DNA from: a virus
DNA: 40,199 nt
Virus record (IMG/VR): IMGVR_UViG_3300020162_002490
Span: 1 to 40,199 of that record
Direction: 5' to 3' (one strand)
A program made the translations under genes and the position numbers. Below, piece after piece: positions 2,851-35,641 of the stretch; position 1 is the first letter of the stretch, and every line of letters begins with the position of its first letter. Below the pieces are notes generated by a model. It searched no databases, was not told the DNA's origin, and saw only the letters and a list, made by a program, of their open reading frames with translations.

Positions 2851-3127
2851 CACAGACATACAACCAGTAATAGACTTTGAAGCAGATAAAAGACGTTTAT
2901 GTGAAATCAGATTTGACTGCCATGTAACAATGCATGATAGTGGAATGAGAGAAACCGGAGGTGGATTCTTATACGAATCTCGAAACCTACCACCACAGTG
3001 GTTTAGACTGAACTCTCAGATTACTTTAGAGAGTATTAAGTATGCAAGTGAATTAGAGTTAGGAGCACAACTAAAACAAATGTATCACGAACTTCAACAA
3101 ACAATAGACAAGTATGAACAACGTTGA
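2843..3127 (+). CDS. Hypothetical protein, 94 aa
   Basis: A 94-residue product with two Cys (ERRLCEIRFDC-like segment near residues 20-26), a Gly-rich turn RETGGGFLYE, and a helical C-terminus. No known fold is evident. It overlaps genes on both sides by 8-14 bases, which indicates tight translational coupling. Confidence 0.55.
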   Translation: MNNTDIQPVIDFEADKRRLCEIRFDCHVTMHDSGMRETGGGFLYESRNLPPQWFRLNSQITLESIKYASELELGAQLKQMYHELQQTIDKYEQR

Positions 3128-3377
3128 TAAACAATACATAATATCAGTTCGTGAACTAATAGACAGACCTATTATCAGGGAGGACTTCAATGAAGAGTGG
3201 ATGAACAAGATGACAGACGATGAAATTAATCAATGGGATGAAGAAACTTATGCAATGCTTAGGGAAGATGGTATTACTGAAGATTCTGATCTAAACAGTG
3301 CTCACTTATCAAAATATATTGACAGAGGTATTCTCTACGAACTATTTAAAATGGCCAAAGATGAACAATTTAGATAA
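3114..3377 (+). CDS. Hypothetical protein with TS-like first residues
   Basis: An 87-residue acidic protein. Its first residues MNNVDKQY match those of the next two genes (MNNLDKQY and the thymidylate synthase start MNKLDKNY). After that the sequence diverges into a Glu/Asp-rich helical region. It overlaps both neighbours. The shared 5' end suggests gene shuffling at a conserved translation start; the function is unknown. Confidence 0.55.
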   Translation: MNNVDKQYIISVRELIDRPIIREDFNEEWMNKMTDDEINQWDEETYAMLREDGITEDSDLNSAHLSKYIDRGILYELFKMAKDEQFR

Positions 3378-3705
3378 ACAATACCAATCACTTCTTCAAG
3401 ACATTCCAACTGATAGACAAATAAATATTTGGTTAGATTACATGACATCAAATTTAATTCAAAAACATTTTAGACCTCTTTACAAAGTAGAACCCCAACA
3501 TGTTCAACATTGGGGTAAACCTAGATTCCCAGTACTAGAAGCAACTTGGGGGACTTACAATCATCCACCTATTGAAATTATAGGATTATATGAATTTATT
3601 GAAAATGGGTCTTTAGAAAAATGGGTTGAAATCAAAAAGAATCCTTTAATAAAGTATGATTCTGCAAGTATAATATTAAAAAGAAAAAATGAACAAACTA
3701 GATAA
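3361..3705 (+). CDS. Hypothetical protein, 5' end copied from thymidylate synthase
   Basis: The start is placed at ATG 3361. The first 45 bases match the first 45 bases of the thymidylate synthase gene (3689-3733) at 40 positions, giving MNNLDKQYQSLLQDI against MNKLDKNYQALLQDI. The rest, about 100 residues, is unrelated to thymidylate synthase and is Trp- and His-containing (QHVQHWGKPRFP, EATWGTYNHPP). No catalytic motif is evident. This may be a chimera built on a duplicated gene start. Confidence 0.6.
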   Translation: MNNLDKQYQSLLQDIPTDRQINIWLDYMTSNLIQKHFRPLYKVEPQHVQHWGKPRFPVLEATWGTYNHPPIEIIGLYEFIENGSLEKWVEIKKNPLIKYDSASIILKRKNEQTR

Positions 3706-4906
3706 AAATTACCAAGCACTTCTTCAAGACATTATTGATAATGGAGTAAAGAAAGAAGACAGAACAGGTACAGGAACAATCTCAGTATTTGGAAGACAAA
3801 TCAGACATAAAATGTCAGATGGTTTTCCAATACTTACAACGAAGAAAATGCCATTCAAAACAATCGTAACAGAACTTCTTTGGTTCTTACGAGGTGATAC
3901 AAATATTAAGTATTTGGTTGATAATAATTGTCATATATGGGATGGTGATGCTTATAAGAACTACATAAATAACCCAGCTTACAAATCTGAATCTGTTGCC
4001 GATTTAATGGCTTCACAAGCCGGTCAATTAGTAAAATGTTCAACACAAGAAGAGTTTGTTGAGAAAATCAAAACAGATGATGAGTTTGCAAAGAAGTGGG
4101 GTGAATTAGGACCAATTTATGGTAAGCAATGGAGAAATTGGGGTAAATTAACAGAACCTACAATTAGTTACAATCTCGGTAATGTTGAGAAATTAATGAA
4201 CGGCGTAGACCAGATCGCAAACCTAATCTCTGAACTCAAAACAAATCCAGACAGCCGTAGGTTAATGGTTAATGCTTGGAATGTAGGTGAGTTAGACCAA
4301 ATGGTTCTTCCACCTTGTCATTATGGATTTCAAGTTTATACAAGAGAGTTGAGTTTGGAAGAGAGAGCAACTATATGGAATAACACACATAACCCTGTTG
4401 GAAATATCTACACACATAATCAATATGATGAAAATGATATACCTGCAAGAGCAATCTCTCTAATGTGGAATCAACGTTCAGTAGATACATTCTTAGGTTT
4501 ACCATTTAACATTGCTTCTTATGGATTGTTATTAGAAATAATAGCAAAAGAAGTTAATATGGTTCCTGAAGAATTGATTGGAAATCTTGGTGATGTTCAT
4601 TTGTATTCGAATCACATTGAACAAGCAAAAGAACAAATTGGAAGAGAATTAACGTTCGAAGAAAAGCTACAATGGGTTATGAGAAACACTGATGTTGAAT
4701 TAGAAAACTTAGCAATAACTGAAGCAGCGGCTGTTTTAAGAAAAAGTACAAGAGAACCTTATCCATTACCCACATTTGATTGTCCCGCAATAGATGAAAT
4801 TCCTCACACAACATTTGATGAGTTAGTTTTTAAATTACAACCAGCAGATTTTTATATGGACGATTATCAATCACACCCAACAATCAAAGCACCTTTATCA
4901 AATTAA
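3689..4906 (+). CDS. thyA: Thymidylate synthase (ThyA type)
   Basis: Makes dTMP from dUMP with methylene-tetrahydrofolate. Seen: phosphate-binding DRTGTGT near residues 24-30, FPILTTKK, ELLWFLRGDTN, GPIYGKQWR, the catalytic LPPCHYGFQ with Cys210, and DVHLYSNH with a C-terminal SHP. At 405 residues it is far longer than the 264-residue E. coli enzyme. Extra sequence sits around residues 88-135, before ELGPIYGKQW, and after the catalytic Cys, between QVYTREL and ISLMWNQRSVD. All active-site motifs remain, so it is probably active. It supplies thymidine for AT-rich phage DNA. Confidence 0.95.
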   Translation: MNKLDKNYQALLQDIIDNGVKKEDRTGTGTISVFGRQIRHKMSDGFPILTTKKMPFKTIVTELLWFLRGDTNIKYLVDNNCHIWDGDAYKNYINNPAYKSESVADLMASQAGQLVKCSTQEEFVEKIKTDDEFAKKWGELGPIYGKQWRNWGKLTEPTISYNLGNVEKLMNGVDQIANLISELKTNPDSRRLMVNAWNVGELDQMVLPPCHYGFQVYTRELSLEERATIWNNTHNPVGNIYTHNQYDENDIPARAISLMWNQRSVDTFLGLPFNIASYGLLLEIIAKEVNMVPEELIGNLGDVHLYSNHIEQAKEQIGRELTFEEKLQWVMRNTDVELENLAITEAAAVLRKSTREPYPLPTFDCPAIDEIPHTTFDELVFKLQPADFYMDDYQSHPTIKAPLSN

Positions 4907-5834: not shown

Positions 5835-6344
5835 ATGGGTAAGTATCAATCAACAAAATTATTCGACAACTATTCAGTAGCAATCAGACAATGGAAAGCA
5901 CAGCATTCACATTGTCAGTTACTTCATGGTTATGCATTAGAATTCAAAGTATGGTTTGAATCAATTGAACCTTTAGAGGAAAATCAATTAGATGAAATGA
6001 ACTGGATTATGGATTATGGTGGATTCAAATCACTTCCTAAAGGAGGAGAATCAGTTGAAGAATTAAAGAAAACAGGAAACGGGCTAAAAGATTGGATGGA
6101 CTATATGTGGGACCACACTCTATTAATTGAGAAAGATGATCCACAATTAGAAACATTCCAATACATGCAAGAATTAGGATTATGTCATTTAAGAGTTATG
6201 GATAAAATTGGAGCAGAATCAGCCGCTAAAATGGTTTATGACAAGTTTAATGATGTAATGTCTAAAAGTGGTGGTGGTAGAGTAAAAGTAGTAAAAGTAG
6301 AATGTTGGGAAGCACCTAAGAATTCATCAATTTATATTGGATAA
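5835..6344 (+). CDS. queD: 6-carboxytetrahydropterin synthase (QueD)
   Basis: Converts dihydroneopterin triphosphate, the FolE product, to 6-carboxytetrahydropterin in 7-deazaguanine synthesis. Seen: HCQLLHGYALEF, with the catalytic Cys and a metal-binding His; MDYGGFK; WDHTLL, matching the catalytic Asp-His pair; and a late Glu in VECWEAPKNSSIY. The usual HGH zinc motif reads HGY here, so one canonical His is Tyr. I believe a bacterial subgroup with RQW...HGY has the same change. It is 169 residues, longer than the E. coli enzyme (about 120). QueE and FolE are encoded just downstream. Confidence 0.85.
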   Translation: MGKYQSTKLFDNYSVAIRQWKAQHSHCQLLHGYALEFKVWFESIEPLEENQLDEMNWIMDYGGFKSLPKGGESVEELKKTGNGLKDWMDYMWDHTLLIEKDDPQLETFQYMQELGLCHLRVMDKIGAESAAKMVYDKFNDVMSKSGGGRVKVVKVECWEAPKNSSIYIG

Positions 6345-6345
6345 G

Positions 6346-6480
6346 ATGGCTGTAGCAGGACATACTCTAACAATGGATGAATTCCATCAGTACTTACAGA
6401 ATGTAATAGACTCTGACTTAAATCTAAGACAAAAAGTAGTAGCAGTAGAAAGGTATATAAAAAACATAACAGGAAGATGA
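6346..6480 (+). CDS. Hypothetical protein, 44 aa
   Basis: A short gene between queD and queE, starting one base after the queD stop. The product is a single amphipathic region (LTMDEFHQYLQNVIDSDL, LRQKVVAVERYI). The stop overlaps the next start as ATGA, which supports it as a translated gene. No function can be assigned. Confidence 0.5.
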   Translation: MAVAGHTLTMDEFHQYLQNVIDSDLNLRQKVVAVERYIKNITGR

Positions 6481-6653
6481 AAAGAATAGTTATAAAATTT
6501 ATTATGTTTTTAGCTAATAAGCTAGGATATGATATTGTATTAATAAAATACACTTCTGGAGAGATTTCACTGCAGGGAGATGGAAGGCTTTTAAACTTTG
6601 TAGATACTATCAACTATATGCAGCATATTCGAAAAGTAAAAAATATAGAATAA
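6477..6653 (+). CDS. Hypothetical protein, 58 aa
   Basis: Starts at the ATGA overlap with the preceding 44-residue gene. The product begins with a hydrophobic and basic segment (KRIVIKFIMFLANK), then a short beta-rich region. It ends one base before the queE start. Function unknown. Confidence 0.5.
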   Translation: MKRIVIKFIMFLANKLGYDIVLIKYTSGEISLQGDGRLLNFVDTINYMQHIRKVKNIE

Positions 6654-6654
6654 A

Positions 6655-7428
6655 ATGAAAAGAATAGAAGACTATAACAAAACACTTCCTATTGTAGAGC
6701 TATATACAGCAGTATAATCAGAAGGAAGTAGAGCAGGTTACCCAACAGTGGTAATCAGAACAACAGGCTGTACTCATAGATGTTGGTTCGGAGATGGTGG
6801 ATGGTGCGATTCTTGGTACACAAGTATCCATCCTGAAAAAGGACATATTAGTTTCCAAGACATTATTAACATGTATGATGCAAATCCTCACATCACAGAG
6901 ATGATGTTAACAGGAGGATCACCAACAATGCACCCAGCATTAGTAAATGAATTAACACATTTTGCACATGAAAGAAATATTTTCATTACAATTGAGACCG
7001 AAGGAAGTCATTTTCTTGAAACGGATTACCCAATCAACCTGTTATCAATTTCTCCGAAGTTTTCTAACTCTGTTCCTAAAGTCGGTGTTCTCACCCCTCA
7101 AGGAGATGTGGTTGACGATAAAATGGTTAAGCAACATAACAAATTAAGATTGAATTATGAGGTAATGGCTAAATCAATCGCTTACCATTCTGACTATCAT
7201 CTGAAACCAGTATGGGATGGAGAGGATCAACAAGCATTGGAAGAAATTATGGGTTGTATTAAGGTACTAGACATACCTCAAGAAAAAGTATGGTTCATGC
7301 CAGCTGGTGATTCAAGAGAGGCTTTATTCAAATCATATCCAAAAATGTTTGATTGGGTGAGAGATAATGGATATAGATTAACCTGGAGACCTCACATCAT
7401 TGCATTTGAAGATCAAAGAGAGGTGTAA
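6655..7428 (+). CDS. queE: 7-carboxy-7-deazaguanine synthase (QueE), in-frame TAA
   Basis: Radical SAM enzyme that makes 7-carboxy-7-deazaguanine. From ATG 6655 the frame reads KTLPIVELYTAV, then TAA at 6715-6717, then SEGSRAGYPTVVIRTTGC. Family members have Gln at the TAA position (QGEG or QSEG motif), so a C-to-T change of CAA explains it. Downstream the frame is intact: CTHRC and a third Cys in GGWCD as likely cluster ligands, TGGSP, and TWRPHI at the end. A GTG at 6748 could start a 226-residue product, but it would lack the QxEG segment. The site could be a real nonsense mutation, readthrough, a suppressed codon or a sequencing error. Confidence 0.8.
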
Positions 7429-7628
7429 TGGATTTTAGAGAAGCTCATTTAACCGAAGTAGATATACTAAACACCTTATGGTGGATGTGGAGTAATTCAC
7501 AACTTACTTTAGGTGATGTAAAATTTCATGCGGGATGTTTGGATCTCGAAATAGAGTTCATTACATTAGACGGATATAAATTTATAAGTAAAGATAAAAA
7601 AACAACTTATTCTTATGACAGAAAATAA
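7428..7628 (+). CDS. Hypothetical protein, 66 aa
   Basis: Begins at the TAATG overlap with queE and overlaps the folE start by 14 bases. The product has a helix with LNTLWWMWSNSQ followed by beta strands (LEIEFITLDGYKFISK). It is not a recognised enzyme. Its place between queE and folE suggests co-expression with the deazaguanine genes. Confidence 0.55.
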   Translation: MDFREAHLTEVDILNTLWWMWSNSQLTLGDVKFHAGCLDLEIEFITLDGYKFISKDKKTTYSYDRK

Positions 7629-8313
7629 TAGAAAGAAAATCCACAACGATTTAGAAGTGGTACAAGAAGGTTTTGCAAATGGTGTTGCACCTGGGTTCCC
7701 ATTAAGTACTGAGGCAAAGTTAATTATGATTGAAGAAGCAGCTGAAGCTTATGGTAAATTTTTAGATGCATTAGGTTGTGATTGGAAAAATGATCCAAAC
7801 TCATCTGATACACCAAGACGTGTAGCTAAAGCTTATGTTAATGATTTATGGAAAGGTAGATATACTCCAATGTCAGAAATCACTTCATTTCCTTCAGATG
7901 GTTATGATGGAATTGTAATCGAAAGAAATATTCCATTAACATCAATGTGTTCACATCACCACCAAACAATTGGAGGAGTAGTTCATATTGGTTATGTAGT
8001 AGGTGAAAATGGTAGAGTAATTGGTTTATCTAAATTAAATCGTATTGTAGAACATTTTGGAAGAAGAGGTGCTATTCAAGAACAATTAACATCTGCCATT
8101 CATCAAGCAGTAAATAAAATTTGTGAAAATAATAGAGGTGTAATTGTTTCTATTGTTGGTACTCACAATTGTGTATCTTGTAGAGGTGTTAAACATCAAG
8201 GTGCGTCAATGGTTACAACTAAAGCATCAGGTGTATTTTTAGAAAATGGAAACTTAGCAAGAGAAGAGTTTTTTGATTCAATTAAAATCAATAACGGTAA
8301 CCATCCAATATAA
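7615..8313 (+). CDS. folE: GTP cyclohydrolase I (FolE)
   Basis: Opens GTP to dihydroneopterin triphosphate, the first step of 7-deazaguanine and folate synthesis. Zinc ligands fit the family: Cys112 and a His in MCSHHHQTIGG, and Cys186 in THNCVSCRG (Cys189 is a second possibility). SKLNRIVEHFGRR matches the family's SKLxRIV signature. Length 232 is normal (E. coli 222). In phages, FolE with QueD and QueE typically supplies deazaguanine for DNA modification. It overlaps the upstream gene and is joined to the downstream gene by TAATG. Confidence 0.93.
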   Translation: MTENNRKKIHNDLEVVQEGFANGVAPGFPLSTEAKLIMIEEAAEAYGKFLDALGCDWKNDPNSSDTPRRVAKAYVNDLWKGRYTPMSEITSFPSDGYDGIVIERNIPLTSMCSHHHQTIGGVVHIGYVVGENGRVIGLSKLNRIVEHFGRRGAIQEQLTSAIHQAVNKICENNRGVIVSIVGTHNCVSCRGVKHQGASMVTTKASGVFLENGNLAREEFFDSIKINNGNHPI

Positions 8314-8717
8314 TGGCTTTAAAAATACAAAATAAAATCTACTTAAGTTGGGACGATATATCCCAACTAGTAGATACATTATGTGAAAAAATTATTACTG
8401 AAATACCTAATATAGACTCAGTATTTGGCGTTTCTAGAGGTGGTTTAATACCTGCGGTTATGGTTTCCCATAAGTTAAATTTACCTTGGTCAAAGGTAAT
8501 GTTACCTAATACCTTAGTAATAGACGATATTGCAGATACCGGGCATACCTTAAAAAATACTGTAGGTTGTTATACAGCGGTTTTATTCTATAAGCCTCAT
8601 ACTTCTTGTTATACACCCCATATTTATGCTCAAGAACATAATAGTAATGAATGGGTAATTTTTCCTTGGGAGAATAAAAATTCTGAATCTATACAAGATT
8701 ATTTAAAAACAAATTAA
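8313..8717 (+). CDS. Phosphoribosyltransferase (Gpt/Xpt-like)
   Basis: A 134-residue purine-type phosphoribosyltransferase. GVSRGGLIPAVMVSH forms the PPi loop, and VIDDIADTGHTL (Asp71-Asp72) is the PRPP-binding signature of the type I fold. Xanthine-guanine phosphoribosyltransferase (about 152 residues in E. coli) is the nearest named enzyme; the specificity loop cannot be read with certainty. Its overlap with folE suggests salvage of guanine or a deazaguanine base, but that is inference. Confidence 0.8.
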   Translation: MALKIQNKIYLSWDDISQLVDTLCEKIITEIPNIDSVFGVSRGGLIPAVMVSHKLNLPWSKVMLPNTLVIDDIADTGHTLKNTVGCYTAVLFYKPHTSCYTPHIYAQEHNSNEWVIFPWENKNSESIQDYLKTN

Positions 8718-10315: not shown

Positions 10316-12046
10316 ATGAGTTATAAAAATATAACAACTACTTCATTAGGGAAAAATAGGTATAATATTACCTTATGGACTGATGATGGAGTAGAACAGC
10401 ATGAATTCCAAAATTATGCCTATGAAGTGTGTAGCCAAGACCAGGCTACACATTTTGGTCTAAATGGAGAACCTTTAAAAAAAGTAACTTATTGGGAAGG
10501 GAGTAATCCATGTATTCATTATCATGATATGCCTATACATCAAAAATTTTTAATTGATAAATATGGTATTAATGATGAACCTTCAACTACTCATCAAGAA
10601 ATATTTTTTGATATTGAGATTGAAATGGGTGGCGCACTTACACCTGAATATATTAGGAAAGCACCTAAACCTGTTACATCAATTGCTTGGTGGCATAAAC
10701 AAGAAGATAAATGGTATATTTTAATTTTAGATAAAGATAATAAAATTGAAAAAACTACTATAGGAAATAAGTATATTATTCCTGTTCCAAATGAAAGAGA
10801 ATTATTAAATAAATGGTTAAATTATTTAACTAAGATTAATCCCGATATTTTAATTGGTTATAATAGTGATTATTTTGATATACCTTATCTATATTATAGA
10901 ATATTAAATCAATTAGGTGAACGTAGAGCTAATACCTTATCTTCAATAGGTAAAATTAAAGAGCAAAAATATACTAGAGATGATGGAATTATAATCTATA
11001 ATGAAGATCAACCTATAAGAATTGAAGGAACTTATTCTTTAGATTATATTCGTTTACATAAAAAATATTCATTTGCAGATGAACCTTCTTACAAATTAGA
11101 TGCATTAGGTGAAAAATATTGTAAATTAGGTAAAATTGAATATGAAGGTAGTTTAGATAGATTATTTGAAACTGATAAAGAAAAATTTATTGAGTATAAT
11201 TTTCGAGATGTCGAAATTTTAAAAGAACTTGATAATAAATTCAACTATATTAGTTTAACTAAAAATCTAGCTCATAAAGGTAAAATCCATTACGACGATG
11301 TTTACCAATCTTCTAAGATTCATGATGGCGCTATTTCAGCTTTTTTATTATCAGAAGATATAATACCTCCATCACGGGATAGAAACCCGATTAAAAAAGC
11401 TAATTACGCTGGTGGTTATTTATTTTGTCCTAAAGCTGGTTTATACCGTTATATGTTTGATGAGGATTTAACTTCATTATATCCTTCAATTATTATGTCT
11501 CTTAACATTGGTAAAGAAACATTAATAGGTAGGATTATTGATTTAAATGATAGAAATAATCATTTAGGTTTAAATGACTTAATAAATGATATTGAAGACA
11601 GACCTCGCACTACTGAATGGTTCACTAATAAAGATAAATTCAATAAAATTGATTGGACTTCTTCTAAAATAGTTAAACTTCTTCAACAATATAATTTGGC
11701 TATCTCGGCAAATGGTGTTATATTTCGTACAGATAAAGAGTCAGTATTATCAACTATATTAAATAAATGGTTTGATGAAAGGGTTTTATATAAAAATTTA
11801 ATGAAAAAAGCTTATAAAGCAGGAGACATAGTAGGTGGTGAAAAATATCATTTATTACAATATACAATGAAGATCTTACTTAATTCACTTTATGGCGCTA
11901 CAGCATTACCAACATTTAGGTATGGTAATGTAATATTATCAGAAGCAATTACATTAAGTGGTCAACGTATTATTCAAGAATCAGCACTTTGTGTTAATAG
12001 ACATATGAATCAAGTTATTAGAGGTGAAATTAAATTAGAGATATAA
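10316..12046 (+). CDS. DNA polymerase B, N-terminal part (exonuclease, motifs A and B)
   Basis: First of two polypeptides that together make a T4 gp43-like family B polymerase. Seen in order: Exo I DIEIE (D99, E101), Exo II YNSDYFD (D188), Exo III YNFRD (D298), motif A DLTSLYPS (D384), and motif B KILLNSLYG (K519, N523, Y526, G527). It stops about 50 residues after motif B, before catalytic motif C. Alone it cannot polymerise, because the second catalytic aspartates are on the next polypeptide. The 576-residue protein starts after AAAGGTTATAATG. Its stop overlaps the next small gene as TAATG. Confidence 0.93.
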   Translation: MSYKNITTTSLGKNRYNITLWTDDGVEQHEFQNYAYEVCSQDQATHFGLNGEPLKKVTYWEGSNPCIHYHDMPIHQKFLIDKYGINDEPSTTHQEIFFDIEIEMGGALTPEYIRKAPKPVTSIAWWHKQEDKWYILILDKDNKIEKTTIGNKYIIPVPNERELLNKWLNYLTKINPDILIGYNSDYFDIPYLYYRILNQLGERRANTLSSIGKIKEQKYTRDDGIIIYNEDQPIRIEGTYSLDYIRLHKKYSFADEPSYKLDALGEKYCKLGKIEYEGSLDRLFETDKEKFIEYNFRDVEILKELDNKFNYISLTKNLAHKGKIHYDDVYQSSKIHDGAISAFLLSEDIIPPSRDRNPIKKANYAGGYLFCPKAGLYRYMFDEDLTSLYPSIIMSLNIGKETLIGRIIDLNDRNNHLGLNDLINDIEDRPRTTEWFTNKDKFNKIDWTSSKIVKLLQQYNLAISANGVIFRTDKESVLSTILNKWFDERVLYKNLMKKAYKAGDIVGGEKYHLLQYTMKILLNSLYGATALPTFRYGNVILSEAITLSGQRIIQESALCVNRHMNQVIRGEIKLEI

Positions 12047-12309
12047 TGGCATTAAAAGGACAATCAATTAGAAACGGAGTTACTATTAACATAAATGGTG
12101 TTAAAACTGAAAAACAATTAATTATTGAATTATCTGAAAGTTGGGATGAATCCCAAGAAAAATTCTTTAAGAAAATGCTTAAACAAGGAGGTAAATGTAA
12201 AGTTAACGGAAACTCATTTGAAATAATTCTTAAAGAAAGATCTGATATAGATTCAAAAGGTAATAGACCAATTAATTTACCACCAATACCAGGAGAAAGA
12301 ACATTTTAA
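12046..12309 (+). CDS. Hypothetical protein inserted between polymerase halves
   Basis: 87 residues between the two polymerase polypeptides, starting in a TAATG overlap. It resembles no homing endonuclease: no HNH, GIY-YIG or LAGLIDADG motif. The middle is helical and acidic (ELSESWDESQEKFFKKML), and the C-terminus is Pro-rich (INLPPIPGERTF). The gap between the two polymerase reading frames is 264 bases, a multiple of three. It may be a remnant of a mobile insertion, or a small partner of the split enzyme. Confidence 0.6.
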   Translation: MALKGQSIRNGVTININGVKTEKQLIIELSESWDESQEKFFKKMLKQGGKCKVNGNSFEIILKERSDIDSKGNRPINLPPIPGERTF

Positions 12310-12310
12310 T

Positions 12311-13246
12311 ATGAAACATTTAGAAGATACTCCATGGTGGATCTGTGATGAAGGTGACTTTAATTTCTGCGCATATGTTGATACTGATTCTAATTACTTT
12401 AACGCTGAACCCTTATTAAAACATTTATACCCAAATTTTGATGAAAAATCAGATCAAGAGAAAGATGATTTATTAGAAAAAGTAGCTCTAAAATATCAAG
12501 ATATTATAACAGAACATTATAATACACTAGCCAAAGAAGCTTTTAATATTAATACACACCGATTAGAAATGAAAACTGAGTGTGTTATTCGTTCTGCTTA
12601 TTTTAGGGCTACAAGACGTTATGCACAATGGATTACTAAAAAAGAGGGTATAGTTAAAGAGGAATTAGATATAAAAGGTTTAGAATTTAAGAAAGCTAAT
12701 TTTCCTAAATATTTTGGTAAATTTTATCAAGAAATCCTTGAATTAATTATTAAAGGTACCCCACAAAGTATTGTAGATAAAAAAATTCATGATTTTAGAC
12801 AAGAAGCTACTTCATCTGATATTGACTTTACTTTAATCGGTAATCCTACATCTGTTAAAACTTTAAATGAGTATGTAGCTGCTCATCCTAGACCTGGTAA
12901 AATATTATCTGAAATAAAATCTGGAGCCGGTGCGTCTGTTAAAGCTGCTATAAAACATAATGATTTATTAAGATTTTGGCAATTAGATTTAAAACATAGT
13001 CAAATAGTACAAGGTGATAAAGTAAAATGGGTTTATTTAAAAAATAATCCTTATAATATAGAAGCAATTGCTTTTTTAGAATTTGATATGGCTGATAAAA
13101 TTAAAGATTTTATAAATGAATATATTGATAGAGGAAAAAGTTTTGAAACTATATTACAAAAAAAATTACAAGGATTTTATGATGATCTTGAATGGCAATT
13201 ACCACCGGCGAATCCACTAATACATAAATTTTTTATATTCAACTAA
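12311..13246 (+). CDS. DNA polymerase B, C-terminal part (motif C, thumb)
   Basis: Second polymerase polypeptide, 311 residues. Motif C AYVDTDS (D24, D26) gives the second pair of catalytic aspartates. FRATRRYAQWI matches the conserved KKRYA-like motif that contacts DNA, and DIKGLEFKKANFPKY follows at the palm-thumb border. The C-terminal peptide LIHKFFIFN has the hydrophobic character of clamp-binding tails. With the N-terminal part all family B motifs are present once and in order, so a working two-chain enzyme is likely. It is followed directly by the sliding clamp gene. Confidence 0.92.
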   Translation: MKHLEDTPWWICDEGDFNFCAYVDTDSNYFNAEPLLKHLYPNFDEKSDQEKDDLLEKVALKYQDIITEHYNTLAKEAFNINTHRLEMKTECVIRSAYFRATRRYAQWITKKEGIVKEELDIKGLEFKKANFPKYFGKFYQEILELIIKGTPQSIVDKKIHDFRQEATSSDIDFTLIGNPTSVKTLNEYVAAHPRPGKILSEIKSGAGASVKAAIKHNDLLRFWQLDLKHSQIVQGDKVKWVYLKNNPYNIEAIAFLEFDMADKIKDFINEYIDRGKSFETILQKKLQGFYDDLEWQLPPANPLIHKFFIFN

Positions 13247-28487: not shown

Positions 28488-29662
28488 CATATTGTATACC
28501 TAGTAAATCTAATTTAAGATACTTAAAAACTTGTATACCTTCTATTAGAAATAACGCCCACCGACCTGACCATGACATTATAATATTTGTTGACTCAGAT
28601 GAAGATGGTACTATAGAATGGTTAGAACAAGTTAAAGATAAATATAATTTATCTTATTATGTTAATCCGGATTTAGGGAAATCCTTATTTGGGATTGGTA
28701 AAGCCTATGATTATTGTATTGAAAAATCAACTACAGACGTATTTACAATTTTTCATGCTGATATGATGTTAGGTAAAGATGCTGATTTAAAAGCTTTTAA
28801 TCATTTAAAACCTAAAACTGTAGTTTGTGCTACTCGTATTGAACCACCAATACATCCAAATAATGGAGAAAAAATCTTACTTGACTTTGGAATGTGGCCT
28901 GAAGAGTTTAAAGAAACTGAATTTAATGCTTACGTTGAACAGCATAATAGTGATAATAAAATCACTAATGGCATATTTGCTCCTTGGATGATGTATAAAA
29001 ATGATTTTATAGCTTTAGGGGGTCATGATCCTATTCTACATTCATGTAGAGAAGACTCAGATGTATTTAATAGAATGAAATTAGCAGGATATGAATTTAT
29101 ACAACCCTGGAACTCATTAGTTTATCATTTAACAGGTAGAGGTGCTGGTAGTTTTGACGGTGATCCAGAACGTCATGCTAAATGGAAAGCTGATATGAAT
29201 AGATCCACTTTAGAATTTATTCGTAAATGGGGTTCAAATGTAAATCATACAGAATTAATGGAACCTATTATAGCTCCTAAGTATAATATAGCTTATGTAA
29301 TTAAACATGCTAATATGCAAATTGTAGAAGTGTTAGAACCTTGGTGTGATAGAATGTACATTGATGACGAAATGGGAGTATTGCGAGTAGCATATTTTGA
29401 GAATGAACATAAGAATACATCTTATGATTTAACCAAACGAGTTTTTGATACAAAATATAACGATCCTAAGGGAGAAAATGATATTATAGTGGAATTTGAT
29501 GCTAAACAATTTACTAATGCTGATTTTGCCTTTCTACAAAAATTTCCTGAGGTAGTGAAAGATAATGGAGATATAGGTGAATTTGAATTTAATATATTTA
29601 AAATAACTATTAATTCAATGACTGAGTATCAAAATGATTTAATTTATCTTAATAATAATTAA
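28475..29662 (+). CDS. GT2 family glycosyltransferase
   Basis: 395 residues. The N-terminal GT-A domain has ITYCIPSKSNLRYLKTCI, VDSDEDGT and FHADMMLGK (the DxD-like site), then GGHDPILHSCREDSDVFNR, the acceptor ED(D/x) motif of GT2 enzymes. An extra C-terminal domain of about 130 residues (from IIAPKYNIAYVIKH) is beta-rich and unassigned. It closes the glycan locus; the following gene belongs to a different group. Confidence 0.82.
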   Translation: MEKITYCIPSKSNLRYLKTCIPSIRNNAHRPDHDIIIFVDSDEDGTIEWLEQVKDKYNLSYYVNPDLGKSLFGIGKAYDYCIEKSTTDVFTIFHADMMLGKDADLKAFNHLKPKTVVCATRIEPPIHPNNGEKILLDFGMWPEEFKETEFNAYVEQHNSDNKITNGIFAPWMMYKNDFIALGGHDPILHSCREDSDVFNRMKLAGYEFIQPWNSLVYHLTGRGAGSFDGDPERHAKWKADMNRSTLEFIRKWGSNVNHTELMEPIIAPKYNIAYVIKHANMQIVEVLEPWCDRMYIDDEMGVLRVAYFENEHKNTSYDLTKRVFDTKYNDPKGENDIIVEFDAKQFTNADFAFLQKFPEVVKDNGDIGEFEFNIFKITINSMTEYQNDLIYLNNN

Positions 29663-29675
29663 TATTTATACTAAA

Positions 29676-30110
29676 ATGAATAATATGAAATTTAAATTAC
29701 AAGATTTTTTCTTAAGTGAAGAACTTCTTAGAGAAGAAGGTGAATTAAATTATGAGGCTACTTTAGGTGGTGAAAAATTTAGAGTAGTAGTTGATGTAAA
29801 TAAAAACCCAACTAAAAAAGGCATTAAAGTTAAATTCTTCCCAGTTAATGAACAAGGAATGGTACTTAATAATTTAACACCCGAAGAAATAGACACATTA
29901 CAAAATAGTATCGCAACATCAATATCTAAAAAATTCAATGAATATGGTTTAGAATTTGACAGAGATACAGATGCCCCAGATAAACAAGCAGCCAATTTTC
30001 AAATACCTTTAGATTCAGTTTTTACTTTCATTAGAGATAAAGTATTAGGTGGAGGTGAAGAAGCATCAGCTGCAGAAACAGAGGTTCCAAATGAAGAAGA
30101 AAACACCTAA
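29676..30110 (+). CDS. Candidate internal head or virion protein with leader
   Basis: 144 residues. The N-terminus MNNMKFKLQDFFLSEELLREE resembles the leaders at 31535 and 32235 (FNLKxFLxEGxLLKE), with LSE in the place of a possible protease site. The body is acidic and beta-rich (VVVDVNKNPTKKGIKVKFFPV), ending in a Glu/Ala-rich tail. In T4, head-packaged proteins start with a short targeting peptide cut after (L/I)xE by the prohead protease. That role is inferred here. ATG 29685 is an alternative start. Confidence 0.6.
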   Translation: MNNMKFKLQDFFLSEELLREEGELNYEATLGGEKFRVVVDVNKNPTKKGIKVKFFPVNEQGMVLNNLTPEEIDTLQNSIATSISKKFNEYGLEFDRDTDAPDKQAANFQIPLDSVFTFIRDKVLGGGEEASAAETEVPNEEENT

Positions 30111-30411
30111 TTTAGTTCTAACAAATTATAGTTTAAGAGGGGTACTAGATACCCTTTTTAATACTAAAATTCAAGAAATTTTATATGTTGAAACTTTTAA
30201 CAATATAAAAAAAGCATTACAAGAAAAAAAACGAGAATGCGTTGTATGTGATATTGGACAATTAGAAACCACTATAACACTTTCTAAACCTAATTGGGAG
30301 CCTGCTTTATATTCAATATTAGAATATTATATTAAGATAGAGGATTATGATACATGTTCTCAAATTAATAAATTAATACAAGAGTTAAATGGAGAAGGAA
30401 GTAAAAAATAA
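30091..30411 (+). CDS. Small protein, paralog of the 33377 gene
   Basis: 106 residues from ATG 30091; earlier starts would only extend it inside the previous gene. Its C-terminal half (TITLSKPNWEPALYS, then YDTCSQINKLIQEL) matches the C-terminal half of the gene at 33377 (VILTVQEHEWERALE, then YEMCSQVKKLLETI). Helical; one conserved Cys. No known family. The duplicated region suggests a repeated accessory function. Confidence 0.6.
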   Translation: MKKKTPNLVLTNYSLRGVLDTLFNTKIQEILYVETFNNIKKALQEKKRECVVCDIGQLETTITLSKPNWEPALYSILEYYIKIEDYDTCSQINKLIQELNGEGSKK

Positions 30412-30808
30412 TCTTGAAGAGGGATTTAATAAACTTTTCAATACAACAATTAATATTAAAAGACAAAAAAAAGATAAAGAATTAAGAAAAAAAACTTTAT
30501 TTATATCTCTTATTAAACAATATGAAGAATCTATATCCAATTCATTTAAGCTATTTGAAGGTTTTGGAATTGATCTAAAAGATTATGAAGATAATTACCA
30601 TCAAATCATAGATAAAGTAATTCTATTAAGTTGGGGACCTGATATATATGAGGTAATTAATTATTATTTATATGATCGTTTTGCTATAGATGGGTTACCT
30701 AATTGTATTATAGAACAAATTGATGGGGAGGAACAAGAAGTGTTTTTAAGTAATCCTGAAGAATTGTATAATTATTTAGTAAATATAAATCCAAATTTTT
30801 TAAAATAA
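30389..30808 (+). CDS. Hypothetical protein, 139 aa
   Basis: Mostly helical, basic in the first third (INIKRQKKDKELRKK) and acidic later. The segment FNKLFNTTINIKR resembles DTLFNTKIQEIL in the preceding gene, hinting at a distant relation or shared binding element. No motif. Overlaps the previous gene by 23 bases. Confidence 0.55.
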   Translation: MEKEVKNNLEEGFNKLFNTTINIKRQKKDKELRKKTLFISLIKQYEESISNSFKLFEGFGIDLKDYEDNYHQIIDKVILLSWGPDIYEVINYYLYDRFAIDGLPNCIIEQIDGEEQEVFLSNPEELYNYLVNINPNFLK

Positions 30809-30811
30809 GTT

Positions 30812-31468
30812 ATGGGAACTAGAGGCAAGGCCGCTAAAATTTACTCTAAAGAAGATTTATTACGTGCAATGAAGGTTACTAAAAGTATTAGAGCAGCTGC
30901 TCGATACTTAAACTGTTCATACCAGCATATTAAACCTTACTTTAAATCATACCGAGTTGACGACAACGATCCCAACTCACCTACATTATTTGATACTCAC
31001 AAGAATCAATTAGGAAAAGGTATTCCCAAATTTCTAAAACATCATGGTAAAGACCCTGACCTACAAAAAATACTAACTGGTGAATTATACACTGAATCAT
31101 TTAGTGTAGACAAATTCAAACGCAGACTAATTCAAGAAGCAATACTAGCAGAAGAATGTGTTTGCTGCGGATTTAAAGAGCAACGTGTATCAGATTATAG
31201 AGTACCATTATTAATTAATTTTAAAAATGGGAACAAAAGAGATTGGAAACGGGAAAATCTAGAATTCCTCTGCTACAATTGCTACTTTTTAACTATTGGA
31301 GATGTATTCACTAAGAAACAAGAACAGGGTATTGAAGATTATAATGAGGGTTATAAAGTAAATCAAGTAACATGGGAGTTAGATGAATACGCTGAAGAGC
31401 ATTTTCGTTCATTAGGATTAATGGATGATAAGAAAGAGGATGATGACTTTATTTCTTATAATAAATAA
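30812..31468 (+). CDS. HTH plus zinc-ribbon protein, HNH-like but degenerate
   Basis: 218 residues. Residues about 14-45 form a helix-turn-helix (KEDLLRAMKVTKSIRAAARY, then LNCSYQHIKPYFK). Residues about 115-165 carry ECVCCGF and LCYNCYF, two CxxC pairs that should bind zinc in an HNH-like frame. The expected catalytic His residues are missing: the usual HHxNG region reads PLLINFKNGN. It may therefore bind DNA without cutting, or use another metal-ion set as in endonuclease VII. The tail is acidic. Followed by a promoter. Confidence 0.6.
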   Translation: MGTRGKAAKIYSKEDLLRAMKVTKSIRAAARYLNCSYQHIKPYFKSYRVDDNDPNSPTLFDTHKNQLGKGIPKFLKHHGKDPDLQKILTGELYTESFSVDKFKRRLIQEAILAEECVCCGFKEQRVSDYRVPLLINFKNGNKRDWKRENLEFLCYNCYFLTIGDVFTKKQEQGIEDYNEGYKVNQVTWELDEYAEEHFRSLGLMDDKKEDDDFISYNK

Positions 31469-31470
31469 GT

Positions 31471-31499
31471 TTGTTAATCTAATTTTTTCTTCGTATATT
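31471..31499 (+). promoter_or_regulatory. Promoter, TTGT-N17-CGTATATT
   Basis: TTGT 31471-31474, 17 bases with a T-run, CGTATATT 31492-31499. The region from here to the start codon is nearly the same as at 32199-32235, so promoter and 5' coding end appear duplicated. Confidence 0.65.
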
Positions 31500-31515
31500 T
31501 ATTTATATAACTTAA

Positions 31516-31536
31516 AATAATAATAATAATAATAAT
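31516..31536 (+). repeat. AAT trinucleotide tract touching the start codon
   Basis: Seven consecutive AAT units, the last one overlapping the ATG at 31535. The matching site at 32222-32234 has only two units, so tract length varies between copies. Slippage here would change leader length. Confidence 0.7.
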
Positions 31537-32152
31537 GAACAATAATTTTAATTTAAAACAATTCCTTACTGAAGGAAAATTATTAAAAGAAGATATTCAA
31601 AGCTCTTTTAAACAATTAGTAGATGCTATTCCTAATGAAAAGTATTTTTATATAGCAGATGAACAAGCTGATACTTTTTTTAATCCTGAAGAAAATGGCC
31701 CTGATTATAATTATGCTGGATTTGACGACTTCTCAGATGGGGATTTAGTAGATTATTTCTATGATGATATTTTTAATAATGAATTAAAAGGTAAACCCGG
31801 AGTTGAAGGGAATAATTTTAATGAATGGCAAAGTATAGATAGAGAAGAAAATCCTACAGAAAAAGGTGGTGGAAAAAATGAAATGTTACTCTATAATAAA
31901 ATTAAACAAATAATTTCTGATTATAAAATATCAAAATTTTCAGATGAGATTCCTTTAACTTCAGAAATAAAAGATTATATTGATGAAACTATTCAAGATG
32001 CTAGAGATAGGGGAGAATTTGATTATTTACTTGATGCTGGTTTCTTTGGTACAGATTTAGCAGATAATATTTTAACTGAGTTTATGGATGAATATCCAAA
32101 TGCTTATACTCTAAGTCAAGAAGTAGAAGATTATATTGATTCACAACTTTAA
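31535..32152 (+). CDS. Acidic protein with N-terminal leader (candidate internal head protein)
   Basis: 205 residues, strongly acidic. It begins MNNNFNLKQFLTEGKLLKE, almost the same as the 32235 gene (MNNNFNLKKFLAEGILLKE), while the bodies differ. LTE-G fits an (L/I)xE prohead-protease site as in T4 internal proteins. The remainder is helical with Asp/Glu clusters (DEQADTFFNPEE, GFDDFSDGDLVDYFYDD). A high negative charge might suit DNA-like packing or mimicry, but this is a guess. It has its own promoter. Confidence 0.6.
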   Translation: MNNNFNLKQFLTEGKLLKEDIQSSFKQLVDAIPNEKYFYIADEQADTFFNPEENGPDYNYAGFDDFSDGDLVDYFYDDIFNNELKGKPGVEGNNFNEWQSIDREENPTEKGGGKNEMLLYNKIKQIISDYKISKFSDEIPLTSEIKDYIDETIQDARDRGEFDYLLDAGFFGTDLADNILTEFMDEYPNAYTLSQEVEDYIDSQL

Positions 32153-32177
32153 TTAATACCCCTTACATATAAAATAC

Positions 32178-32206
32178 TTGGCCTCTTAAAGAGGCCTTCG
32201 TATATT
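32178..32206 (+). promoter_or_regulatory. Promoter, TTGG-N17-CGTATATT, hairpin in spacer
   Basis: TTGG 32178-32181, CGTATATT 32199-32206, with the hairpin at 32180-32196 filling the spacer. Drives the second leader-bearing gene at 32235. The downstream bases TATATTTATATTATATAACTTAAA are nearly those following 31494 (summarised). Confidence 0.68.
32180..32196 (+). terminator. Hairpin GGCCTCT/AGAGGCC
   Basis: Seven perfect pairs with a three-base loop. Only two T follow, then CG of the promoter element. It could end the 31535 transcript or mark the promoter; a classical T-run is missing. Confidence 0.6.
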
Positions 32207-32234
32207 TATATTATATAACTTAAAATAATAAAAA

Positions 32235-32948
32235 ATGAACAATAACTTTAACTTAAAAAAATTCCTTGCTGAAGGGATATTATTGAAAGAGGAACGTTTC
32301 TATGCCCCTAACTATGTAAAACAAAAATATGGTAATAAAGCATCTGAAATAGAAAATAATATACATGATGAAGAAGATAATAATCCTAATATTTGGGATT
32401 TATATACTTCTTTAGAATCACCTGAAGAAGTAGATGATTTTGTTCAAGGATTTATTAATGAATCCGAATTAAATGAAGAAGCTCAAGTAGATGAGAATCT
32501 TATTAAAAGCATTTTTGATGAGAAAGTACAAGACGATTATAAACCATTAATTGGTACTGATCCAATTTATGACGGTTTAGAAGAAGTATTAAACTCACCT
32601 AAAACCTTTCAAAAAGTAGCAGAATGGGTTAAAGACCAATTTGAATCTTCTGGAGAGGATTTAGAAGAAGGAGATGAAGCAGGTTATGCTTCTGATGCTA
32701 CTGATTATAGTATTATGGAAGCTTTTGCTCCTCGTTTAGTTCAAAATCTAATTAAAGCTGGGTTTACTTATGATAAAGGAGAAGATGATTGGACAGTACC
32801 TGAAAGTTATTCTGATAAAACTGATTATGAGGCATTAACATCATATGGTGTTATTTATGATATCTGGGGATTAGGAGGTGATTATGATACATCACCTAGA
32901 GAGACAATATCTCAGTTTTTAACAAGTGCTGCTGAACAAGCAGTTTAA
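32235..32948 (+). CDS. Acidic protein with N-terminal leader (candidate internal head protein)
   Basis: 237 residues. Shares its first 19 residues almost exactly with the 31535 gene, with LAE-G at the possible cleavage point. The body is different: acidic, with a domain from about 90 to 230 including EEVLNSPKTFQKVAEWVKD and YDIWGLGGDYDTSP. No enzyme motif is recognised. The shared promoter, leader and start region with unlike bodies point to gene shuffling behind a common targeting peptide. Confidence 0.6.
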   Translation: MNNNFNLKKFLAEGILLKEERFYAPNYVKQKYGNKASEIENNIHDEEDNNPNIWDLYTSLESPEEVDDFVQGFINESELNEEAQVDENLIKSIFDEKVQDDYKPLIGTDPIYDGLEEVLNSPKTFQKVAEWVKDQFESSGEDLEEGDEAGYASDATDYSIMEAFAPRLVQNLIKAGFTYDKGEDDWTVPESYSDKTDYEALTSYGVIYDIWGLGGDYDTSPRETISQFLTSAAEQAV

Positions 32949-34155: not shown

Positions 34156-34390
34156 ATACGGAGCCGCTTGGTGTGGACCTTGCAAGATGTATGCTCCTAA
34201 ATTCAATGAAGTAGCAACTACAATTTCAGGAGTTAATTTCCAATCAGTAGATGTTGATTCAGGTGATCCAAGAATCATTGAACATGGGATTAGAAACGTG
34301 CCTACAACAGTAGTGATTGATGAGAACGGAAATATTCGTAAACAAATAGGTATTATGAGTGTAGAACAATTAAAAGAATTCATAGGGTAA
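34139..34390 (+). CDS. Thioredoxin
   Basis: 83 residues, a short thioredoxin (bacterial ones about 105). The active site is WCGPC (C12, C15) and the cis-Pro loop is NVPTTVVID. Family role: reduces disulfides, for example to recycle ribonucleotide reductase or as a polymerase processivity factor in T7. Here the first is more likely, since the polymerase is family B. The gene ends in a small hairpin. Confidence 0.9.
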   Translation: MKTVIKYGAAWCGPCKMYAPKFNEVATTISGVNFQSVDVDSGDPRIIEHGIRNVPTTVVIDENGNIRKQIGIMSVEQLKEFIG

Positions 34391-34401
34391 TATTTATTAC
34401 C
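34386..34401 (+). terminator. Short hairpin at thioredoxin stop
   Basis: GGTAAT and ATTACC form six pairs around ATTT, covering the stop codon. It is AT-rich with no T-run, so only a weak or partial terminator. Confidence 0.4.
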
Positions 34402-34414
34402 ATACACTAAACTT

Positions 34415-35641
34415 ATGGCTCAATTAAAAGATTTATTACCTCAAATACCTAAAGACGAATTATCAATTTTAAAAGATTTAAATTTAAAATTAGATGAATC
34501 TAAATTAACAGAAGCAACAGCTAAAGAAGCTGCACAGGCTGTTAAAACCATTATTCAAAATTGGAAAGGATGGTCACAGGCAATGCTAGTTGCAATGTTA
34601 TTAACACCTAATATATCTAATGCCTTAGAGACATATGCACCTGACACATTAGAGGCTATCAAAACTGAAATATCAGCAGAAACATCAAGTAAAACTACTG
34701 GTAACCCAACCGCTGTCAAAACTGTAGATTTTTCACAAACATTTGCTTCGGGGCAATCAGAAATTGTTAATAAACAAGTTATACTTGATAAAGTAAAGGA
34801 TTTAAAACAATGGATAAATTCAAATAAAACTAAACCATTTAAAATAGTAATTACAGCTAGTGAATCTAAAGTACCTAACCCTGAAGGGTTCGGAGAAGGG
34901 GAATTAGCTCAAGCTAGAGGTGAAGCAATTCAATCATTAGTTACTAAATTAGGAGCACAAGATGTTGAAGTTAAAACATTAGTAGGTGGGCCAGCTTGGG
35001 ATGGTAAAAATAAAGATGATGATAAATATACTAAACATCAATATATTAAAGTAAGTATAGTAATTGATACTGAAAATATATGTTCTATGAAAGATATTGA
35101 TGATAAGGGTAGACAAGGTACTTCATCTAATAATTATAAAACTTATGATGAGTATTTAAGTGGGAATGGTGATGTAATACTACATACAGGAACTATACCT
35201 GATAGAATGGTTATATTAGACTCAAATAATAAAATCACTTATGATACAGGATATGTAGCCACTGATGTGACTGATTCTGCTAGTGGATATAAGGAATGGC
35301 AATATGTCCCAATTTATGTTTTACAATTAACAAAACTTGCTCAGAATCAAACTATAATGGGTTCAAATATAGAAACTATTGATGTTAAAACATTTGAAGA
35401 ATTAATTAGTAAAATGTTAAAACCTGGAGCTACACGAGAGAAAAGTGATACTGTAGATAAGGCTTTAGATGAATTAGAATTAATGTTTAAGAGTGGTGTT
35501 AGAAAATTTGTTAAATATAAAGTAGGAACAGGTGATTTAAAAATAGAATTTAAAGATAGTAGGGGTGACTCTAAAGTCCAAATATTCTCACCTGTAGGTA
35601 AAACAGGGTTTAGTTTAAAGGGACAATGTAATAAACCATAA
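34415..35641 (+). CDS. OmpA-like-domain protein, probable virion component
   Basis: 408 residues. N-terminus with a helical segment (AMLVAMLLTPNISNAL) that may be a membrane or signal helix. Residues about 110-220 resemble an OmpA/MotB domain: TFASGQSEIVNKQV, IVITASESKVPNPEGFG, ELAQARGEAIQSLV. Such domains bind peptidoglycan. A C-terminal region of 180 residues is beta-rich. In Bacteroidota phages, proteins of this type are found among virion proteins; the assignment is inference. It is followed by a strong hairpin. Confidence 0.6.
   Translation: MAQLKDLLPQIPKDELSILKDLNLKLDESKLTEATAKEAAQAVKTIIQNWKGWSQAMLVAMLLTPNISNALETYAPDTLEAIKTEISAETSSKTTGNPTAVKTVDFSQTFASGQSEIVNKQVILDKVKDLKQWINSNKTKPFKIVITASESKVPNPEGFGEGELAQARGEAIQSLVTKLGAQDVEVKTLVGGPAWDGKNKDDDKYTKHQYIKVSIVIDTENICSMKDIDDKGRQGTSSNNYKTYDEYLSGNGDVILHTGTIPDRMVILDSNNKITYDTGYVATDVTDSASGYKEWQYVPIYVLQLTKLAQNQTIMGSNIETIDVKTFEELISKMLKPGATREKSDTVDKALDELELMFKSGVRKFVKYKVGTGDLKIEFKDSRGDSKVQIFSPVGKTGFSLKGQCNKP

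Follow-up and report, generated by a model that had tools for sequence, protein, structure and literature searches.

Two neighbouring genes share a leader ahead of unrelated bodies

The DNA analysed here, a viral fragment of 40,199 bases, is IMG/VR record IMGVR_UViG_3300020162_002490 (the whole stretch is called the window below), and our subject is a short N-terminal leader with which two neighbouring genes on its forward strand begin. Gene 31535 is an open frame of 205 residues (31535–32152) that starts with MNNNFNLKQFLTEGKLLKE, and gene 32235 is an open frame of 237 residues (32235–32948) that starts with MNNNFNLKKFLAEGILLKE; the two proteins are identical at 16 of their 19 N-terminal residues. 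When the N-termini of the 72 open reading frames (ORFs) of the window were compared, this pair reached a similarity score of 78, against a maximum of 37 for internal 25-mers of the same proteins (2,556 control pairs). The shared leader, already reported in an initial annotation of this DNA, is therefore real. Its 19 codons differ between the two genes by five synonymous and three non-synonymous changes, and since synonymous changes are this frequent the leader is conserved at the protein level. That annotation had also called the bodies behind the leader unrelated, and we indeed found no similarity between the two proteins past the leader.

The leader occupies positions 31535–31591 in the first gene, where conservation ends at the E of KLLKE, and 32235–32291 in the second, where conservation ends at the corresponding point. 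The remainder of gene 31535 (31592–32152) encodes an acidic body without a known family, for which no relative was found. The body of 32235 consists of two modules. Module 1 (residues 20–87; 32292–32495) is common to a protein of contig G032 (gene 69698) that carries the sub-type b leader described below (60% over 97 residues counting the leader, E 2e-29). Module 2 (residues ~102–234; 32538–32936), which makes up the C-terminal 130 residues, is present at locus L216 behind a different leader, also described below (52% over 141 residues, E 5e-43). Neither window protein had a relevant tblastn match among cultured phages.

The leader recurs on many viral contigs and ends at a (L/I)xE motif

Viral contigs were scanned with degenerate DNA patterns of the leader, and the scan was later extended with longer contigs. 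The leader was found at N-termini, ahead of differing bodies, on many contigs: 71 proteins fitted the leader expression, one of which (L066) looks like chance, and their bodies fell into 47 clusters, 34 of them singletons. Some of the contigs are near-duplicates of one another, and the search relied on exact degenerate patterns, so these counts are lower bounds and are not independent; ATG was taken as the start codon. Two sub-types were distinguished, type a with FNLK(K/Q)FL(A/T)EGKLLKE and type b with F(N/D)LKKFL(T/V)ENKLTxNSRLLxE. For the 24–36 kb part of the window the only DNA matches among cultured phages were the Flavobacterium phages immuto, which encode four leader proteins (gp003, gp092, gp077 and gp076), the last two directly ahead of the terminase gene. 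At locus L040 (4418–5893) the separate gp077 and gp076 of immuto are fused in one frame, with an internal second leader MKEGFNLKKFLVENKLTTNSK. When 84,980 bacterial and archaeal genomes were scanned with a type b pattern, a single contig matched; TerL- and portal-like neighbours make it probable that this contig, too, is phage.

The initial annotation had compared the leader with the (L/I)xE cut of T4-type prohead proteases and had placed the cut after LTE or LAE, that is, after E13. The motif does occur in the leader, and does so twice, first at FLTE|G and again at the very end of the leader. Among 22 non-redundant type a proteins column conservation stayed near or above 2 bits through the E of KLLKE and then dropped to about 0 within a few residues, and among 31 type b proteins it faded at the E of LLxE. 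The (L/I)xE at the leader end stood at one position in 19 of the 22 type a and 16 of the 31 type b proteins, most others being at most two residues off. A cut only after E13 was given up, and the final cut was moved to KLLKE, because GKLLKE is conserved as strongly as the first site. The mature proteins would thus likely start after E19, possibly with an earlier cut at E13; the predicted cuts fall after bases 31573 (E13) and 31591 (E19) in gene 31535 and after bases 32273 (E13) and 32291 (E19) in gene 32235. Two sites in one leader would not be unusual, given that T4 propeptides have 10–19 residues and phiKZ propeptides hold several redundant sites (PMC9026906).

Several leader genes lie near T4-type head genes

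A match to the S77 protease family (PF03420) was found in each of the six leader contigs of at least 100 kb, in all four contigs of that size carrying the second leader described below, and in immuto, for which Pfam returned Portal_T4 (4e-71), Peptidase_S77 (9e-35) and Gp23 (6e-84). The closest relatives, contigs G001 and G005, encode an S77 prohead protease. A leader gene adjoins the protease gene in at least six contigs, before the gene at the position of T4 gene 22 and the capsid gene, and a T4-type head gene order was seen in a dozen contigs. Most members of the gene-22-position protein, referred to below as the probable scaffold, retain the T4 gp22 cut site IAE|A, and in most contigs the N-terminus of the protease itself bears (L/I)xE|(S/G/A). 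Both features support the same cut specificity as in T4.

Two other N-terminal families were noted. One, M..FDIHxWQxK(F/Y)L(K)ES, adjoins the protease (immuto 125241; G032 79423 and 79689; G024 12649; G022 1187) and is probably another capsid tag. The other, MKxSxLKxLIKEExxxxLxE, recurs in G020 (65331, 142860, 146061 and 148758) and immuto (102294, 113188 and 123355) and ends near a (L/I)xE; one of its carrier genes lies between portal and protease.

A second leader matches the tail of the probable scaffold

An all-against-all comparison of the N-termini of immuto revealed a second leader, MKKQILSEQF(K/R)RMQxLAGIITES, which we call the RMQ leader. Its core is also the C-terminus of the probable scaffold, which reads RMQKLAGI in 11 of 12 carriers and WQKLAGIIK in immuto. 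A scan for RMQxLAGIIxE gave 80 loci among the matches listed, and the motif stands at the start of a protein in 85 of its 88 occurrences and at the end of one in a single case. Conservation of the RMQ leader ends at LxE (LNE), and its proteins form at least 62 body clusters among the matches listed. At least eight body families, that of 32235 among them, occur behind both leaders; in one such example the proteins of L015 and L167 are 77% identical from the leader end onward.

The bodies are depleted in the cut motif

A packaged protein that survives the protease would be expected to lose internal (L/I)xE motifs, and depletion was therefore tested with 5,000 permutations and with controls drawn from the same genomes. 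In 55 non-redundant leader bodies [LI]xE occurred at 0.80 of the composition-based expectation, compared with 1.22 in 570 other proteins (P 1/5000) and 1.13 in the acidic ones among them (P 10/5000). The reversed motif, [LI]xD and [LI]xK were not depleted in the leader bodies. Bodies without any (L/I)xE made up 44%, as against 17.5% of acidic controls. In an independent repeat, the RMQ bodies among the matches listed had [LI]xE at 0.73 of expectation (0 of 5000 permutations). The probable scaffolds are mostly enriched in (L/I)xE, and their T4 counterpart is degraded. The selective depletion suggests, as expected, that the leader bodies as a group survive an S77-type protease.

Searches of the bodies against Pfam, PHROGs, NCBIfam and PADLOC gave nothing convincing; nearly all bodies are orphans, and isolated matches, such as those to coiled-coil families, were regarded as chance. 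A kinase-like GxGxxG stretch (LGSGKNGKVFRIG) in the leader proteins L019 1526 and L023 6972 was likewise set aside, as neither Pfam nor a sequence search of the Protein Data Bank (PDB) supported it. AlphaFold models had a mean predicted local distance difference test (pLDDT) score of 42 for 31535 and 45 for 32235.

A promoter motif variant is common to leader and structural genes

Both window genes are preceded on the forward strand by an element TTCGTATATTTA-TATATAACTTAAAATAAT, at 31490–31521 before 31535 and at 32197–32229 before 32235, within which the 8-mer ATATTTAT lies at 31495–31502 and 32202–32209. Window genes 19658 and 21572 are also preceded by ATATTTAT. A reading in which this upstream DNA marks leader genes alone was abandoned, since TTCGTATATT is a general phage motif that stands ahead of many genes, and only the variant continuing into ATATTTAT marks leader and structural genes. 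This variant was found before 35 of 52 structural genes (P 7e-17; a class hand-picked by conserved N-terminal prefixes), 8 of 11 leader genes (P 1e-5; those with an intergenic upstream region) and 60 of 471 other genes. In the AT-rich window the 8-mer itself is about as frequent as expected (17 copies against 15.5), and what counts is therefore its position and the class of the genes. The initial annotation had pointed to the T4 arrangement of a promoter and a targeting peptide before variable bodies. Here ATATTTAT lies ahead of 29676, 31535 and 32235, and the leader genes are predicted to have a late promoter of the structural-gene type.

Runs of small genes, each after TTCGTATATTTA(A/G)GTAT, were seen in G001 (37.9–50.3 kb), G005 (161–172 kb) and G032 (20.7–39.7 kb). 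This is apparently a second promoter type, distinct from that with ATATTTAT and probably early.

Other genes of the window

Gene 29676 (29676–30110, forward strand), which starts with MNNMKFKLQDFFLSEELLREE, had been credited with a looser version of the leader. The score of its N-terminus against the leaders of 31535 and 32235 (36 and 34) did not rise above noise (control maximum 37), whereas the layout F-x-L..F-L-S-E..L-L-R-E and the upstream ATATTTAT (29662–29669) are the same. With pairwise evidence at noise level, 29676 on its own is a weak member. Its body contains no further (L/I)xE and is ~78–86% conserved in related contigs, which indicates vertical conservation, and it has another N-terminus in immuto and in two further contigs. 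A further candidate is an OmpA-like protein (34415–35641, forward strand; Pfam OmpA match E 1e-4, under the curated cut-off) that starts with MAQLKDLLPQ..ESKLTEA and is preceded by ATATTTAT at 34390–34397. Its relative in G032 (gene 26140; 36% over 402 residues) bears leader b instead. Together with the body families that occur behind both leaders, the different leaders of 34415 and its G032 relative and the other N-terminus of the 29676 body argue that the leaders are replaceable modules serving the same cargo.

Three features elsewhere in the window were recorded. Three consecutive genes (3114, 3361 and 3689, within 3114–4906) share the N-terminus MN(N/K)(V/L)DKxYxxLLQDI; gene 3689 is a thymidylate synthase (Pfam 9e-92) and the other two are without a family, so that it looks as if the start of thyA was copied ahead of other bodies. 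A family B DNA polymerase appears split over 10316–13246, with the exonuclease and the first part of the polymerase domain at 10316–12046, an 87-residue ORF at 12046–12309 and the likely C-terminal part at 12311–13246. Positions 5835–8717 hold PTPS (QueD-like), radical SAM (QueE-like), GTP cyclohydrolase I and phosphoribosyltransferase-like genes in an order close to that of the immuto queuosine cluster, which suggests 7-deazaguanine-modified DNA. In T4, IPI protects against modification-dependent nucleases in a setting of modified DNA; the window genes hint at a similar setting, as a parallel and not as a test.

Interpretation and alternatives

We consider it highly probable that the leaders are exchangeable, cleavable capsid-targeting propeptides of a T4-type prohead system in immuto-like Bacteroidota phages. 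The analogy to T4 capsid targeting drawn in the initial annotation was upheld by every sequence test that was run: the diversity of the bodies, the leader end at (L/I)xE, the S77 protease in all carrier contigs of at least 100 kb, the gene position, the promoter motif, the depletion in the bodies and the interchange with a leader that copies the tail of the probable scaffold. These results argue strongly for packaging of the tagged proteins into the head. According to this model, a tagged protein would be made late in infection from a structural-gene promoter, and its leader would dock it into the prohead core or shell through a putative partner there. The S77 protease would then cut behind (L/I)xE motifs, the last cut falling at KLLKE| in type a and at ..RLLxE| in type b. 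The body would remain inside the head, most likely be ejected with the DNA, as the initial annotation had suggested, and act on the host, for example against its defence. By analogy to T4 IPI (PMC9026906, PMC3012670), the bodies most likely serve against host defence.

Several observations weigh against this model. The bodies are acidic (median charge –9 per 100 residues, compared with –1.8 for all ORFs) and thus unlike the basic IPI–III of T4 (T4 internal proteins are described as basic in PMC9026906). Further (L/I)xE sites are kept in both window proteins, five in 32235 and two in 31535. The prohead protease gene, a search for which the initial annotation had proposed, is absent from the 40 kb window fragment, although every carrier contig of at least 100 kb has one. 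No database match identifies the gene-22-position protein as a scaffold, so this name reflects its position and motifs. Some of these points would fit prohead-targeted core or filler proteins, like gp67, gp68 and gp22 of T4, which are chopped and lost in maturation and never delivered: several leader genes lie between the protease gene and that of the gene-22-position protein, the bodies are acidic, and 32235 retains its five sites. We regard this explanation as improbable, since the bodies are selectively depleted in (L/I)xE and many lack it altogether, whereas the probable scaffolds are mostly enriched, and since the diversity of the bodies is extreme, unlike that of core proteins.

The location of some leader genes among tail or metabolic genes could mean that the leader targets another part of the virion or cell, such as the tail, the membrane or a phage compartment, and that (L/I)xE is coincidental. 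The loss of this motif from the bodies and the adjacency to the prohead protease point to the head instead, as does the exchangeable second leader, whose core is also the tail of the probable scaffold, and such other targeting seems very unlikely to us. We give even less credence to a leader without a packaging role, that is, a translation or expression cassette copied before genes, or a recombination hot spot at gene starts. The upstream DNA is also shared and the window has another N-terminal family at 3114, 3361 and 3689, as a cassette would have it, but the leader is kept as protein with frequent synonymous change, it ends at (L/I)xE in both sub-types and in the RMQ leader, and a translation cassette does not predict the downstream depletion of that motif.

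Relation to known systems and significance

The principle of a removable head-targeting tag is known from phage T4. Counterparts in the T4 record are MKTYQEFIAE|A and FLTE|A, and the former resembles F(N/D)LKKFLxE by eye, being too short for a claim of significance. T4 IPI, IPII and IPIII with their capsid targeting sequence, and Alt, resemble the leader proteins in a short N-terminal leader that ends at (L/I)xE before unrelated bodies, in an S77 prohead protease (here in the larger carrier contigs), in a late promoter of structural type (here predicted) and in fast-changing bodies (PMC9026906, PMC3012670). In contrast to T4, with no demonstrable sequence homology to it, the leaders here have 19–25 residues with two (L/I)xE sites, the bodies are acidic, a second, interchangeable leader copies the scaffold tail, and there are many more cargo families. 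The system works like T4 capsid targeting. We do not class the proteins as T4 internal protein homologues: a leader of this length cannot carry such a claim, the bodies are unrelated, and their charge is acidic, unlike that of the basic T4 proteins. In phage P1, N-terminal residues of DarB likewise send an anti-restriction protein, and also a reporter, into the head; however, the Dar proteins have no common leader and P1 appears to be without a separate scaffold protein (PMC9024508). The ejection proteins of phiKZ and SPN3US are cut by a prohead protease after a short x-x-E, with propeptides of several sites, whereas the phiKZ motif is S/A-x-E and no shared short leader of such a kind is described in the part of PMC9026906 that deals with them. 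The cultured phage immuto (Immutovirus) has the four leader copies, two RMQ leaders, the S77 protease and a T4-like portal and capsid, but the annotation of its leader genes gives hypothetical proteins or an unrelated enzyme, and its DNA aligned with the window over only 5% of the tested 12 kb.

The leader peptides were not found in the literature searched, many journals lying outside its coverage. The general scheme is already known. What appears to be new are the leaders with their two-site layout, the tag that resembles the scaffold tail, the exchange of leaders and the extent of the repertoire. A broader proposal, which we hold to be evenly poised, is that the T4-type phages of Bacteroidota have an open cargo-loading system, in which interchangeable tags, one of them a copy of the C-terminal tail of the scaffold, can be fused to any late gene and load fast-turnover, mostly acidic and possibly anti-defence effectors for delivery with the DNA.

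If the targeting model is true, a short regular expression would retrieve the candidate repertoire of injected proteins from a large group of aquatic phages that has hardly been studied. Exact-pattern scans alone gave about 110 body clusters or more, with hardly any annotation. Since injected proteins act before phage gene expression, new counter-defence and host-takeover factors would be sought first among them. The tag resembling the scaffold tail points to a simple route by which cargo may enter T4-type heads outside the enterobacteria, and with immuto in culture, such scaffold-tail cargo loading would be testable now.

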